From positions 3,472,001 through 3,536,000 of the forward strand of contig NC_014376.1 in NCBI RefSeq assembly GCF_000144625.1: a stretch of 64,000 nucleotides of DNA. The letters are read 5' to 3'. The notes under the pieces were generated by a model that was given only the letters and a program-made list of their open reading frames with translations, had not been told where the DNA came from and did not search any database. Below, one piece after another: positions 5,498-58,341 of this stretch. A program made the translations under genes and the position numbers. This DNA comes from [Clostridium] saccharolyticum WM1. GTDB taxonomy: Bacteria > Bacillota > Clostridia > Lachnospirales > Lachnospiraceae. How positions within the stretch are numbered: position 1 is the first letter of the stretch; the number at the start of each line of letters is the position of its first letter.

Positions 5498-7384
5498 TTA
5501 AAAGTCATTTTTAATTATTCTGCATAAAAACAGATAAAAAACAGAAAGAGGAAAACCTTGTGACGGATGGAAATCAATATTTTTCCGGTAAAAGACCCAT
5601 ACTGGGGACAGATTCTGTTTCCGGCTCCTGGTAAGGCGCATGGAAGAAAGGCCCATGACTTCTGTCAGCTTGAATTTTCCAACCTCACCCCGCAAGGCTG
5701 CGGCCTGTGCAGACATCTCCTCGCTGGTAGCGGAGTTTTCTTCTGCAGTGGCAGCATTGGTCTGTACAACGGTGGAGATCTGGAAAAGTCCCTGTTTGAT
5801 CTGCTTGATTGCAGCTGCCTGCTCGATAGAGGACTTCTGGATCTTTCCGAAGCTTTCCGTTACCTTAGAGGCACTCACTCCCACATCCTGCAGGATTTGT
5901 GCGGTCCTGGCGCTGATTTCCGCTCCCTTTGCCACTGTGGCCACAGAAGCCTGAATCAAATCGCTGGTTTGCTTTGCTGCTTCCGCCGATTTTGCTGCAA
6001 GATTGCGGACCTCATCTGCTACCACCGCAAAGCCTTTTCCTGCACTGCCTGCACGGGCCGCTTCAATGGCAGCGTTCAGGGCAAGAATATTGGTCTGGAA
6101 TGCAATGTCCTCAATAACCTTTGTAATGCTGGCGATCTGATCGGAAGCAGTGCCGATGTCAGCCATTGCGGACGTAAGCTGCTTCATATGTACATTTCCG
6201 GCATTTGCGTTTTCACCGGCCTGATTCACGGATTTTGATGCCAGCTCCACCGTGGCTGAATTCTCCGCAGCCTGCTCCGCAATTCTTTCTATGGAAGCAC
6301 TCAGTTCTTCTACGGAAGCTGCCTGCTCCGTAGAGCCTGATGCGAGAGCCTGCGCTCCGCTGGATACCTGATCAGAGCCTGTTGCTACCTGGTCAGCCGC
6401 CACATCAATGGACTTTAAGGTATTACTGAGCCTGTCCCTCATTTTCCGCATGGAATCCAGCAGAGATAAATAGTCTCCCACATAGCTTTCTTCTGCTTGG
6501 GTATGTACTGTAAAATTACCATCTGCCAATTCGCCCAGCAGATAGGAAGCATCGGTTATCATCAGCTTTAATGTACCTGACATGCGGCGGAAGGTCTGGG
6601 CCAGAACACCGATCTCGTCCTTTGAGCTTGCGTCAATATTGACACTGACCTCTCCGCAGGCCAGCTTGTCAGCAGCCTTTACCATCAGGGCGATCCGCTT
6701 AGATATGCCGCGGGCAATCATGAACCCGACCAGCACCGCCAAAAGCACGCCCATAAGCACGCCTATAAACATAATAAGCTTGACGCTTACCACCAGCTTA
6801 TCATTGCTGGTGATCTGCTGCTTTGCATAATTCTGGTTATAACTGACCAGATTGGCAATCCTCTCTTCCACAGTCTGAGCCATAGTGTGGAGCTCGCCTC
6901 CATCACTTAATAAGGTATAGGCTTCCCCGCGGCGGTCCGGGTCCATGGCAGCAGGACTGCTGATAAACTGATTGCGTTCTTCTGTAAAATCATTCAGGGC
7001 GGTCTCAAGCCGGGATATCAGTTTCAGCTCCTCCTCTACTTCCTCTGCATTGTATTTCTCAAGAGCTGCCTTGTATTTGGACAAGTTCTCATCGATGATT
7101 CCTTTGTGACGTGTCAAGGCTTCCACACAGGCTTCCTTATCCGCTTTGTCACTGGACAGCACCATCTCCAAAAGGTCTGTCCGCACTTCCTGAAAAGAAG
7201 CGCTGACCCTCTCCATACATTCCAATGCCGTAACTGTATCCGAATAAGCAACATTGTAGGACCCGCCCACGCGTTCCAGGCCCACAATCCCCACAATTCC
7301 TATTATGCCGGCAATCAGCGCCACAAGAAGGAAACCGCTAATGATCTTACCGCCGATTTTTAAGTTGCTGAACCATTTCTTCAT
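5498..7384 (-). CDS. Methyl-accepting chemotaxis protein (4HB type), probably phase-variable
   Basis: Transmembrane chemoreceptor that would feed an external stimulus to CheA/CheW. It has a first membrane helix (about residues 12-35), a periplasmic-side four-helix-bundle sensor, a second membrane helix near 205-228, a HAMP domain, and the MA signalling hairpin with its tip around [20 protein letters not shown]. The start at 7384 has TAGGAGGG eight bases upstream. The last 45 or so residues after GKFKLTEV look non-native: the -1 frame there gives an acidic tail ending PEKY with a stop at 5574-5576, so a single-base frameshift near 5665-5675 is likely. An invertible promoter lies upstream at 7501-7793 and no chemotaxis partner genes are nearby. 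Confidence 0.93.
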
Positions 7385-7500
7385 AAAATTTACCCTCCTA
7401 ACAGTACTTTCTTTCATTCCTCTATTTATCCTTTTAAAAGGAACCTCCGTGAGACCTGTATCGATCCCCCTCCCTCTGCTTTCCTCCCTTCGTATGGTGA

Positions 7501-7527
7501 ATCACATAATTTCGATTTTGTTGTAAC
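7501..7527 (+). repeat. Left inverted repeat of the invertible segment (IRL)
   Basis: These 27 bases (starting ATCACATAATTT, ending TTGTTGTAAC) are the exact reverse complement of 7767-7793. Identity stops abruptly on both sides, as expected for recombinase crossover sites. It lies 116 bp upstream of the chemoreceptor start. Confidence 0.9.
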
Positions 7528-7582
7528 GCTGAAGAAATCCACACTGCCTTACAATATTTCATAATGAAAAATGCAGATAAAC

Positions 7583-7636
7583 GTACGAAAACCAGGCTGG
7601 TTAAAAAAAAGACCTTCACCAGCCTGGTTTTCGTAC
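7583..7636. terminator. Bidirectional terminator inside the invertible segment
   Basis: A perfect 19-bp stem (7583-7601 with 7618-7636) has a GC-rich core CCAGGCTGGT flanked by AAAA/TTTT, with a 16-nt loop. Because the T-run follows the stem core on both strands, it should terminate in either orientation. It lies behind the promoter in both states and would block transcription running from the recombinase gene toward the chemoreceptor. Confidence 0.7.
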
Positions 7637-7706
7637 ATAAAATTCTAAAAACATTAGTCATCTGTCATTTGATTACGCTTTATTTATGATTATTTATGTG
7701 AAACAC

Positions 7707-7736
7707 TTGCCATTTTCCGCGCGGATGATATATAAT
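7707..7736 (+). promoter_or_regulatory. Sigma-A promoter within the invertible segment
   Basis: TTGCCA (7707-7712), an 18-bp spacer and a perfect TATAAT (7731-7736) read rightward, away from the chemoreceptor and into the 3' end of the minus-strand recombinase gene. After inversion it would read toward the chemoreceptor. Confidence 0.7.
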
Positions 7737-7766
7737 CATGTCGATACTTGTCTAATTTTGGAAACA

Positions 7767-7793
7767 GTTACAACAAAATCGAAATTATGTGAT
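7767..7793 (-). repeat. Right inverted repeat of the invertible segment (IRR)
   Basis: Exact reverse complement of 7501-7527. It contains the last codons and TAA stop (7785-7787) of the recombinase gene. Because the repeats are identical, inversion leaves that coding end unchanged. Confidence 0.9.
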
Positions 7794-8642
7794 CACTAGA
7801 CGCATGTGTTCAATCTGCTGTGCATGAACTGTACCGCTTTCCACGGTATAGATCCTGGTAGTATTGATATTGGAATGGCCCAGGATATCCGCCAGCCGAA
7901 ACAGGTCTTTTTCCAGGGTATAATAAATGCGGGCAAACAGATGGCGCAGATTATGGGGAAATACTTTTTCCGGCTTCACATCCGCACTTTTGCAAAGGTC
8001 TTTCATGTCCCGCCAGATATTGGAACGATCCAGGGGCTTGCCTGTTTTTGTGACAAAAACAGGCCCAAAGCTTCGTTTTTGTCTCCGGGCATATGAGATC
8101 AGGGCCCGCCGCAGCTTTTCAGGCAGAAATATGGTCCGTGTCTTGCCTTTGCAGTTCACATCTGCACGCCCCGCTTGCACTGCTTCCATGGTGATGAATT
8201 GCAGCTCAGAAACCCGGATGCCTGTGGCGCAGATGGATTGAATGACAAGAGAAAGACGCTGGTTGCCTTCTCTCTCAGCCGCCTGCACCAGACGCAGATA
8301 TTCTTTGCGGGTAAGCTCTTTCTCCTCCCGGCAAAATAAATTCCTCTGTATTTTCAAAGGCTTGACCTTTAAATCTATCCAGCCGGCGAAATTCAAAAAT
8401 GCATTGACTGCCGCCAGCATGGTATTGACACTGGCAGCGGCATAATTCCTTGTCAGATATTCCTTCCAATCGATCAGGGCACTTTTGGTAATCGGCACAT
8501 CTCCCAAAAAATTACATAGAACCGCAAGGTCGCGTTTATACTTTTCAATGGTGGAAGTGCTTTTCTCCTGTTCCCTTAAGTAAACAGAAAAGCGTTTTAT
8601 CAGCTCCGGGGTAATATCCCGCTTTTTTTTTGCTTGTGACAT
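7785..8642 (-). CDS. Tyrosine recombinase, probable inverter of the adjacent promoter switch
   Basis: A 285-aa tyrosine-family site-specific recombinase. An N-terminal SAM-like core-binding domain (about 10-95) is followed by a catalytic domain with Arg143 (ATGIRVSEL), a Lys near 165-167, His230 and Arg233 (HNLRH), His256 (ILGHSN) and the nucleophile Tyr265 (TTRIY); all catalytic positions are present. The start at 8642 has AAAGGAG ten bases upstream. Its stop codon lies inside the right inverted repeat of the 7501-7793 segment, and it is transcribed toward the chemoreceptor. This tight linkage suggests a dedicated invertase for that switch rather than a prophage integrase; no other phage gene is nearby. 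Confidence 0.92.
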   Translation of the reverse strand: MSQAKKKRDITPELIKRFSVYLREQEKSTSTIEKYKRDLAVLCNFLGDVPITKSALIDWKEYLTRNYAAASVNTMLAAVNAFLNFAGWIDLKVKPLKIQRNLFCREEKELTRKEYLRLVQAAEREGNQRLSLVIQSICATGIRVSELQFITMEAVQAGRADVNCKGKTRTIFLPEKLRRALISYARRQKRSFGPVFVTKTGKPLDRSNIWRDMKDLCKSADVKPEKVFPHNLRHLFARIYYTLEKDLFRLADILGHSNINTTRIYTVESGTVHAQQIEHMRLVIT

Positions 8643-8749
8643 TGCTGGGTGATCTCCTTTTTGTGTTATATTTTGTCAGGTTATTGTCTCATTTTAGTTA
8701 TGAACACTCCGCCGGACCGGTCCTGCCGGAAAGCGTTTTAATATAAATA

Positions 8750-8797
8750 AAAGACAGGCGGTTGACGCAAAAATTCATGCGCCAGATGACTGTCTTT
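8750..8797 (-). terminator. Candidate terminator downstream of the DUF554 remnant / recN
   Basis: AAAGACAG (8750-8757) pairs with CTGTCTTT (8790-8797); on the minus strand the stem is followed by TTTATTTATATT. It probably ended the recN-DUF554 transcript and separates it from the recombinase gene. Confidence 0.5.
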
Positions 8798-8878
8798 CAC
8801 AGGGATGCCACTTATCCTTCCTCTCCGTTTCCGTACCGGGAATCCGTCTGCAATCAGCTTTGCAGCCGGAAAAAGGCT

Positions 8879-9099
8879 CTAAAAAAGAAAAGCAAAGGCA
8901 ACGGCCAAAAAAATGGCCGGGAGCAAATTGGCTCCCCTTATCATCTTCCCCAGATAAGATTCAGGCCCGCACAAAAAATCAGAACCGAACCCGTAAGGGA
9001 TAAGTTTGACAAAGCCTGCTCCATCATCAAAGGCTGGATCAGTCTTGCCAGATGTGTTATGTTCCCTGAAACAAAGCTGCCGGAATCGCTGAAAACACG
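8879..9099 (-). pseudogene. DUF554 membrane protein, C-terminal remnant with frameshift
   Basis: Between recN and the recombinase, the minus strand encodes a recognisable DUF554 (YdfK-like) C-terminus: SGNITHLARLIQPLMMEQAL, then a membrane helix LTGSVLIFCAGLNLIWG. The frame then hits TGA TAA at about 8940, but the next frame continues with KMIRGANLLPAIFLAVAFAF to a TAG at 8879-8881. A one-base frameshift near 8938-8950 therefore splits the sequence, and the N-terminal two thirds of a normal 220-230 aa protein are absent; the remnant abuts the recN stop. This looks like decay left by rearrangement. No other gene is supported in 8643-9113. Confidence 0.65.
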
Positions 9100-9113
9100 C
9101 ACCCTTTGCCAGT

Positions 9114-56268: not shown

Positions 56269-58341
56269 TTAAAAATTAAGGCCTTTTAACTTAAATTGGC
56301 TGATATAATCTTTCAATAATTGTGCCTGACTATTAAGTTCTTCGCTTGCTGCAGCACTTTCTTCCGCACTTGCACTGTTTGTTTGAACAACCGTCGAGAT
56401 TTCATCAATACCTGCAGTCACTTGTAATACAGCTAATGCCTGCTCATTGGAAGCTTGTGCTATTTCATTGATAAGACCAATCATCTTATCGAAACTTTCT
56501 ACAACATTTCCCATTGATTGTGCCGTGCTGTCAGCTATATTGGCGCCGTTTTCCACGGCGTGTATTGTTTCTTCAATAAGTGTTGTAGTATTTTTTGCTG
56601 CTTCATCTGATTTTTGTGCCAGGTTTCTGACTTCACTGGCTACAACGGCAAAACCCTTTCCTGCTTCACCGGCACGCGCAGCTTCAACAGCGGCATTAAG
56701 TGCCAGGATATTTGTTTGGAATGCAATATCTTGGATTGTCTTGATAATTTTACTGATTTCAGCAGATTTTGCATTAATTTCATTCATTGCAGCGATCATT
56801 TCCTGCATCTTGCCATTGCTATTTTTAACTTCCTCACCTGCAGATATGGCTTCGGTGTTTGCAAGTTGTGCGTTTCCAGCATTACGCTTGATTTGCTGTG
56901 AAATTTCACTGATTGTTGCAGAAAGCTCTTCCGTGCTGCTCGCTTGTTCCGTTGTTCCTTCTGCAAGTAATTGTGCCCCTAAGGATACCTGATTCGAACC
57001 ATTAGAAACCTGGTCTGCTGCGGAATTACACTCTAACAGTGTATTATTTAACTTATCGGTTGCCTGCAGCAGTGCCTCCTTAATTTTCGTGAAGTCTCCA
57101 TCATATGCTTGGGTGAAACTTAAATTTAAGTTTCCATTGCCGATCTGAGCCAATAATTGGGATATTTCATTGATATATGCAATATAAGTCTTTAGCCTTG
57201 TAGTCAAAACTTCCATTGACCGCGCCAAGCTTCCAATTTCGTTCTTTGATTTAATGTTAATTTCAGTATCAAGGTTTCCTTGTGAGAGATCATCAACAAT
57301 AACTGTAAGCTTCTTTAATGGAATAATAATGTCTCTTATGCTTAAGCTCATAAGTAAAACTACTGCTATGAGTATACAAATTCCAATCAAAACTACTGAT
57401 GTTATAACATTTTTAGAGCTTTCCCTTAATTCCTTTTCCGAAATAAAAGATGCCAATATCCAATCTGTGCCTTCAACTTTTCTCGTCAAGCCTACATATT
57501 CCTGATTATCAATCTTGATTTTCAAATCCTTATCAGTTAGGATTTTATCAATTCCATTAATACCTGTTTCATCAAGTTTTTTAAAGTTATTAGTTGCATT
57601 ATTACCATCTGCCATAATAATTCCGGAATTATGTACAATCATAGAAAATCCTGTTTTACCCAATTTCATTTTACTTAACATTTCACTAATAACGGATTGT
57701 GAAACGTCTATTCCTATTGTACCAATCACTTTTCCCTGACTATTGGTTAATGTTTTCGCATTACTGGTAATTAAAGAATTCGTTGCAGTATCAATATATG
57801 GAGAAGTTCTTATTATTTTGCCATTTGCTTTTATTGCATCCTGATACCATTCTCTTGTGGTAGGATCATATTCTTTATTAATACTGCTTTCCGGCCATAC
57901 AACATATCCTCCGCCTTCCGTAGCGGCATAAACATAGATTGTTTCCGGATGATTTTTCGCATAATGATTAAATACTTCAAAAATTTCCTGTTCAATGCCT
58001 CCGTTCTTAGAAGGTGTCATATCAGTTTTTGTTTTAGACTTCTTGTAACTGGTTATTGTATCATCTGCTTTAATAATTGTCGGATCTGTTGCAATCATAT
58101 TAATATTCTCATCCAGCTTATTATAAAAATCATTAATATAGTTTTCAACAATGCTTAATTGATTATTTGCATTTTCTTTAAAGTCTGCGAATGCTTTATC
58201 GCTGATTTTTACCGCCAGCATCAACAGGATAATCGCCAAACCAATGCAAACTAAACCATCGGATCTTAGAATGAGTTTAAACTGAATACTGTTTATAAAA
58301 GGTACCTTGTTCTTAATTGATTTTTGTTTTTCATTTGTCAT
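56269..58341 (-). CDS. Methyl-accepting chemotaxis protein with dCache sensor
   Basis: A 690-aa chemoreceptor. After a cytoplasmic N-terminus and a membrane helix near 20-45, a large extracellular dCache_1 domain (about 45-300) shows the ligand-pocket patterns YVYAATEGGGYVVWPESSI and DPTTREWYQDA. A second helix, a HAMP domain and the signalling hairpin ([20 protein letters not shown]) follow. Its dCache type often binds amino acids. The start at 58341 has GGAGGGAC upstream; the ORF is open to 58449. Its third positions look more AT-rich than neighbouring genes. No inverted repeats flank its promoter region. Confidence 0.93.
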   Translation of the reverse strand: MTNEKQKSIKNKVPFINSIQFKLILRSDGLVCIGLAIILLMLAVKISDKAFADFKENANNQLSIVENYINDFYNKLDENINMIATDPTIIKADDTITSYKKSKTKTDMTPSKNGGIEQEIFEVFNHYAKNHPETIYVYAATEGGGYVVWPESSINKEYDPTTREWYQDAIKANGKIIRTSPYIDTATNSLITSNAKTLTNSQGKVIGTIGIDVSQSVISEMLSKMKLGKTGFSMIVHNSGIIMADGNNATNNFKKLDETGINGIDKILTDKDLKIKIDNQEYVGLTRKVEGTDWILASFISEKELRESSKNVITSVVLIGICILIAVVLLMSLSIRDIIIPLKKLTVIVDDLSQGNLDTEINIKSKNEIGSLARSMEVLTTRLKTYIAYINEISQLLAQIGNGNLNLSFTQAYDGDFTKIKEALLQATDKLNNTLLECNSAADQVSNGSNQVSLGAQLLAEGTTEQASSTEELSATISEISQQIKRNAGNAQLANTEAISAGEEVKNSNGKMQEMIAAMNEINAKSAEISKIIKTIQDIAFQTNILALNAAVEAARAGEAGKGFAVVASEVRNLAQKSDEAAKNTTTLIEETIHAVENGANIADSTAQSMGNVVESFDKMIGLINEIAQASNEQALAVLQVTAGIDEISTVVQTNSASAEESAAASEELNSQAQLLKDYISQFKLKGLNF

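Follow-up and report, generated by a model that had tools for sequence, protein, structure and literature searches.

We found that positions 7501-7793 of the DNA analysed here most probably form an invertible promoter switch, which would be worked by the tyrosine recombinase encoded beside it at recombination sites that have no match elsewhere in the genome. Its putative target is a gene for a methyl-accepting chemotaxis protein (MCP), which would be OFF as sequenced and ON after inversion. We give this reading a probability of about 0.83. The whole stretch analysed (64,000 nucleotides; hereafter, the window) corresponds to positions 3472001-3536000 of a 4.66-Mb genome that consists of a single contig of 4,662,871 bases. 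An earlier note on this DNA had already proposed an invertible promoter, a dedicated adjacent recombinase, a chemoreceptor target, and an OFF state, and both the anatomy of the locus and the family to which the recombinase belongs support that interpretation.

The switch is bounded by identical inverted repeats, with the left recombination site on the chemoreceptor side (7501-7527) and the right one on the recombinase side (7767-7793). Just as the earlier note had described them, the arms are perfect: each is 27 nt long, they are 100% complementary, and 239 nt lie between them. This is the sole perfect inverted repeat of ≥15 nt (30-1500 bp spacing) in the 64-kb window; none longer than 16 nt arose in any of 40 windows resampled to first order. 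A search of all 4,662,871 bases with the 27-bp site, allowing ≤3 mismatches, returned no third match beyond the two arms, and a degenerate core pattern with ≤1 mismatch was found genome-wide at the same two places and at no others. Across the switch family described below, the recombination-site consensus is ACATAATnnnnATTATGT, with a further nGTA mostly following it (88 sites).

The recombinase gene (7785-8642, minus strand) is an intact frame encoding 285 aa. Its product matches Phage_integrase (E 4e-25) as well as a SAM-like N-terminal domain, and XerC-like, XerA, and XerD proteins are its best hits in a comparison with solved structures. A role as the XerC/XerD chromosome-dimer recombinase was considered and rejected, as the NCBIfam equivalog scores fell far short of their cut-offs (109.5/329.6 bits for XerD and 107.7/335.15 for XerC). 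All six catalytic residues are present (R143, K167, H230, R233, H256, and Y265), at positions that we assigned from what we take to be the catalytic pattern of tyrosine recombinases. R143 is found in 96/96 aligned homologues and K167 in 89/96, with R in the other seven, while H230, R233, H256, and Y265 are each found in 95/96, the remaining one being masked or gapped. The earlier note had also reported that the gene overlaps one repeat, and indeed its stop codon falls within the right repeat, so inversion should leave the protein unaltered. A consensus scan upstream of the gene identified no promoter. For the recombinase, the best relative with a named source comes from Lacrimispora brassicae (Lachnospiraceae; 91% identical), its own cluster occurs on 35 contigs in the protein database, and at least 7995 database relatives match at E 1e-40 or better. 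Elsewhere in the same genome, C1:599701-601362 holds a tandem pair of other tyrosine recombinases, which are paired in several congeners too; an inverted repeat at their 3' ends was not found in this genome.

The chemoreceptor gene (5498-7384, minus strand) encodes 4HB_MCP_1, HAMP, and MCPsignal domains, all of which score over the Pfam cut-offs. The longest open frame starts at 7417, and the likely start codon is the ATG at 7384, which has AGGAGG just upstream. With this start, the chemoreceptor lies 116 bp from the left repeat, the distance previously claimed, and the intervening leader (7385-7500, minus strand) carries the ribosome binding site. Of 24 genome-wide matches to the MCP signalling domain, 23 exceed the cut-off, and the CheW domain has four matches, which makes a chemotaxis pathway likely. 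One further MCP signalling domain is encoded in the window (56389-56850), and the search for perfect inverted repeats of ≥15 nt gave none in its vicinity. It should be noted that the chemoreceptor beside the switch is identical to a 603-aa database protein (P0121) over residues 1-583, after which the tails diverge (5498-5635, minus strand); by eye, the two tails look like different frames of one DNA, and they lie past the signalling domain.

Between the arms, the invertible segment (7528-7766, 239 bp) contains a promoter-like sequence, TTGCCA-18-TATAAT, on the plus strand at 7707-7736, where the earlier note had placed an internal promoter. It has 11/12 consensus bases at a spacing of 18 and scores 13.4, a value reached by 0.45% of resampled switches, and a homologous switch in another genome (L040) has a similar promoter in the same direction. 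Judged by its sequence, this promoter would face the chemoreceptor in one orientation of the segment only. As sequenced, it is directed away from the chemoreceptor and toward the recombinase gene, which it would enter at the 3' end; this is the putative OFF state. The segment also contains a long hairpin with 22-nt arms and one mismatch (7583-7636), which the earlier description did not include. Compared with shuffles, it has a folding z of -7.0 on the minus strand and -6.7 on the plus strand, and it has no canonical U-tract in either direction. Hairpins with a U-tract do occur in the L050-L061 group of homologous switches, and the L040 switch has no strong hairpin. Rfam returned only two sub-threshold matches at this site, to a microRNA model, and these were taken as chance arising from the long stem. 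From its position, the hairpin may serve as an insulator or terminator between the recombinase and chemoreceptor genes, and in the OFF state it would limit read-through from one to the other. By arithmetic, inversion would place the promoter at 7558-7587 on the minus strand, facing the chemoreceptor, and the hairpin at 7658-7711, behind the promoter. In this ON state, RNA would start near 7551 and have a leader of ~167 nt.

The least expected feature of this arrangement is that, in the OFF state, the promoter would transcribe its own recombinase gene in antisense. A terminator-like site on the plus strand, inside the 5' end of the recombinase gene (8607-8621), could conceivably end such an RNA near the start of that gene; two sites of this kind were found in 7300-8800, compared with 1.6 expected in shuffles.

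Recombinase homologues were sought in 61 relatives' genomes, 391 class genomes, 397 family genomes, and genome contigs, in which three loci matched. Matches at E 1e-60 or better were obtained in 60 of the class genomes and at E 1e-98 or better in 17 of the family genomes, the own genome being included in both. A repeat pair with arms of ≥14 nt was found at the recombinase 3' end in 91/96 loci, the window counted (57/60 in the class sample, 14/15 in the family sample, and 20/21 in the others), compared with 0/20 other integrase loci that served as a control. Among the five loci without a pair, three (L045, L158, and L212) end at contig ends 100-205 bp past the gene, while L145 and L181 are true misses. 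Thus, the catalytically complete recombinase is consistently linked to its site. A stem of the form CAGGCYGG/CCRGCCTG was tried as a mark of the family and was dropped, as it occurs in only 8/89 switches. Several loci depart from the standard layout. In L046 and L048, the recombinase frame extends into the invertible segment, with its stop codon at a depth of 27 and 12 nt, respectively, and inversion would alter the recombinase C-terminus. L153, L157, L160, L173, and others carry an additional recombination site close to one switch end, giving two possible invertible lengths. In L058, two identical copies of the recombinase and switch are separated by ~7 kb in a single genome, and a long frame between the copies, partly masked, includes a C-terminal piece of a recombinase.

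We scored 89 switches for promoters and defined a strong promoter as ≥12 bits, a score reached by 1.1% of resampled switches. A count by best direction (51 toward the recombinase, 20 toward the target, and 18 undecided; n=89) was noisy, a difference of >2 bits being present in 51% of resampled switches too, and we therefore relied on strong promoters only. A strong promoter was present in 46/89 switches, directed toward the recombinase in 28, toward the target in 15, and both ways in three. The position of the strongest hairpin tended to change with that of the promoter: far-side and near-side counts were 25/4 in switches whose promoter is directed toward the recombinase and 2/15 in those whose promoter is directed toward the target (Fisher p 8e-7, kinship ignored). 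When the switch interiors were aligned all against all, 63 pairs matched directly and another 13 matched only when inverted; these inverted pairs are between species, draw on 13 switches in all with members shared among pairs, and are not adjusted for kinship. Ten of these inverted alignments span 56-174 bp and three span 191-215 bp. Over the whole interior, the three long pairs (L177/L179, L179/L182, and L136/L144) have an identity of 0.77-0.81 when inverted versus 0.45-0.50 when direct, as in L177/L179 (0.81 inverted, 0.50 direct) and L136/L144 (0.79 inverted, 0.45 direct), and on the recombinase side their flanks match without inversion at an identity of 0.80-0.87. Homologous segments therefore exist in both orientations in different species, and the long pairs are our best evidence that the element may turn over as a unit in nature, although they compare species rather than cells of one culture. 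A switch from another family of the same order (L053) has a strong promoter facing its target, and its interior matches that of L060 only when inverted, over 73 bp.

The evidence for flipping had to be drawn from the wider class because the congeners lack the cassette at this site and their own switches are one-oriented. The comparison of related genomes for mixed orientations, which the earlier note had suggested, thus gave a positive result between species of the class and a negative one closer to home: the congeners' other switches of the family have a single orientation throughout, where alignable, and no inverted copy was found for the window switch or its close clade (the window, L040, and L200 compared; L042 masked). 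The better promoter faces the recombinase in all three compared, in L200 by ~2 bits. This uniformity, together with the consensus scan that gave no promoter upstream of the recombinase, is what would be expected of a switch that was once invertible and is now locked in one state, its recombinase naturally silent or inactive. We consider a locked switch unlikely, however, as the two arms still match over all 27 bp, every catalytic residue is in place, and the recombinase frame is open and has a 91% identical relative in L. brassicae. A switch that can still invert remains our preferred reading, and were the window copy to flip, otherwise identical cells would differ in one of ~23 chemoreceptors, making part of the sensory repertoire, and not just the cell surface, phase-variable.

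The genes next to the switches link the branch to which the window recombinase belongs with signalling. In a quick tree, the window recombinase groups with those of L040, L042, and L200 (SH-aLRT 97), and signalling genes (MCP or GGDEF/EAL) are next in 4/4 of these loci: an MCP in the window, a GGDEF-EAL protein and two MCPs in L040, and a GGDEF gene in both L042, where the frame is open at the contig end and the recombinase is partly masked, and L200. Of the other 92 loci, 81 had a searchable same-strand downstream frame, and only one of these, L126, had an MCP or GGDEF/EAL gene there, namely an MCP. The window and L040 chemoreceptors are 48% identical in the sensor domain; the best chemoreceptor match by E-value in 60 other relatives has 30% identity. 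Past the distal repeat, the congeners have Flp/Tad pilus genes, a capsule CpsB gene, and a gene for a choline-binding-repeat protein, and many signal-peptide-like or unassigned proteins occur there among the loci listed for the class sample. These targets bear upon the possibility that the switch mainly serves its recombinase, with antisense RNA setting the recombinase level and the chemoreceptor as an incidental neighbour. The sole strong promoter of the window switch is directed into the recombinase gene in the sequenced state, as are the strong promoters of 28/43 one-sided switches, which would suit that arrangement. Nonetheless, we regard it as quite improbable, given that strong promoters face the target in the other 15/43, that the congener genes past the distal repeat are of known phase-varying types (pilus, capsule, and surface protein), and that signalling genes adjoin the switch in every member of the window clade.

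A switch that serves its target is also consistent with the way in which the genes appear to be inherited. In L. brassicae, the recombinase is 91% and the chemoreceptor 82% identical to those of the window, and both records show a largest contig of 231434; in Candidatus Pelethousia, the values are 78% and 64%, and both records show a largest contig of 30445. From these equal values, the recombinase and chemoreceptor appear to share a contig and to travel together. By comparison, L177, L179, and L182 have homologous recombinase flanks and switches, while the 300 bp on their target sides are not homologous (0.46-0.49), and the module therefore seems to be re-used before other genes as well. A broader and decidedly tentative proposal, which we think less likely to be right than wrong, is that the recombinase together with its site pair and the intervening promoter and hairpin constitutes a portable, self-silencing memory module of Clostridia. 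While the target is OFF, antisense transcription would keep the recombinase low, and once the target is ON, this brake would be lifted. Each module would retain its own recombinase and switch and serve different genes, and one branch would have specialised in sensing (chemoreceptors and c-di-GMP enzymes), such that single cells vary in what they sense rather than in what they display.

The cassette lies at a site flanked by recN and spoIVB in related genomes. We compared the recN-to-spoIVB stretch in 13 of 24 congeners, and neither the recombinase nor an MCP was present in any of the 13; in none of the 24 congeners did a same-family recombinase exceed 53% identity over its length. At ~8875-9110, the window contains the remnant of a gene, presumably for a DUF554-like membrane protein, that is intact beside recN in 5/13 congeners. 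Since the congeners lack the cassette, it was either gained in the window's lineage or lost elsewhere; a gain is simpler, perhaps jointly with that of L. brassicae. Its absence from 13/13 congeners and the decayed neighbouring gene would also fit a mobile element, with the repeats as its ends or attachment sites and the recombinase as its integrase. This is very unlikely, however, because the repeats are inverted, with 239 bp between them, and do not enclose the recombinase, and because the same arrangement recurs in 91/96 loci versus 0/20 other integrases. For the invertible switch that we favour, the recombinase and the site consensus would allow switches of this family and their targets to be listed directly from genomes.

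The cassette had previously been called less familiar than other switches, and this view needs tempering, as inversions in Clostridia near chemotaxis genes are on record. A 2018 report, which we take to be Sekulovic et al. (PMC5903667), describes read-based inversion signatures in Anaerotignum propionicum (near an MCP) and Clostridium thermocellum (near chemotaxis genes), and it names signalling and chemotaxis as the functions found most often beside invertible sites in Clostridia. Like the window, these cases have short invertible DNA near MCP or chemotaxis genes, and there the inversions were seen in reads. The family studied here also resembles, by description, an inverton group (139) comprising 33 invertons, 32 of them from the class Clostridia, which is statistically linked to a tyrosine-type recombinase (invertase group 35) and of which one member changes orientation over culture passages; the main text of that source makes no mention of chemotaxis (PMC11892184). 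Given these two reports, the window switch belongs among known switches, of which related ones are common in Clostridia. In the open-licence literature searched, no description was found of the window cassette or of an antisense brake on such a recombinase. With the RecV switches of flgB and cwpV in Clostridioides difficile, the window shares a tyrosine recombinase, short inverted repeats, and a motility or surface gene that would be turned ON or OFF, but RecV is required for several switches, whereas the window has one recombinase beside the sole site pair found (PMC7446863). With the fim switch of Escherichia coli, it shares a short invertible promoter and tyrosine recombinases, there FimB and FimE (PMC8777976). 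The window differs from fim in having one recombinase, whose gene abuts the site, and a chemoreceptor as its target. In E. coli, expression of the recombinase gene fimE is controlled by switch orientation; in the window, any such coupling would operate through antisense transcription. Overall, we view the window switch as a well-supported addition to the switches already known, in which the predicted antisense arrangement and the sensing branch of the recombinase family are the more novel points.
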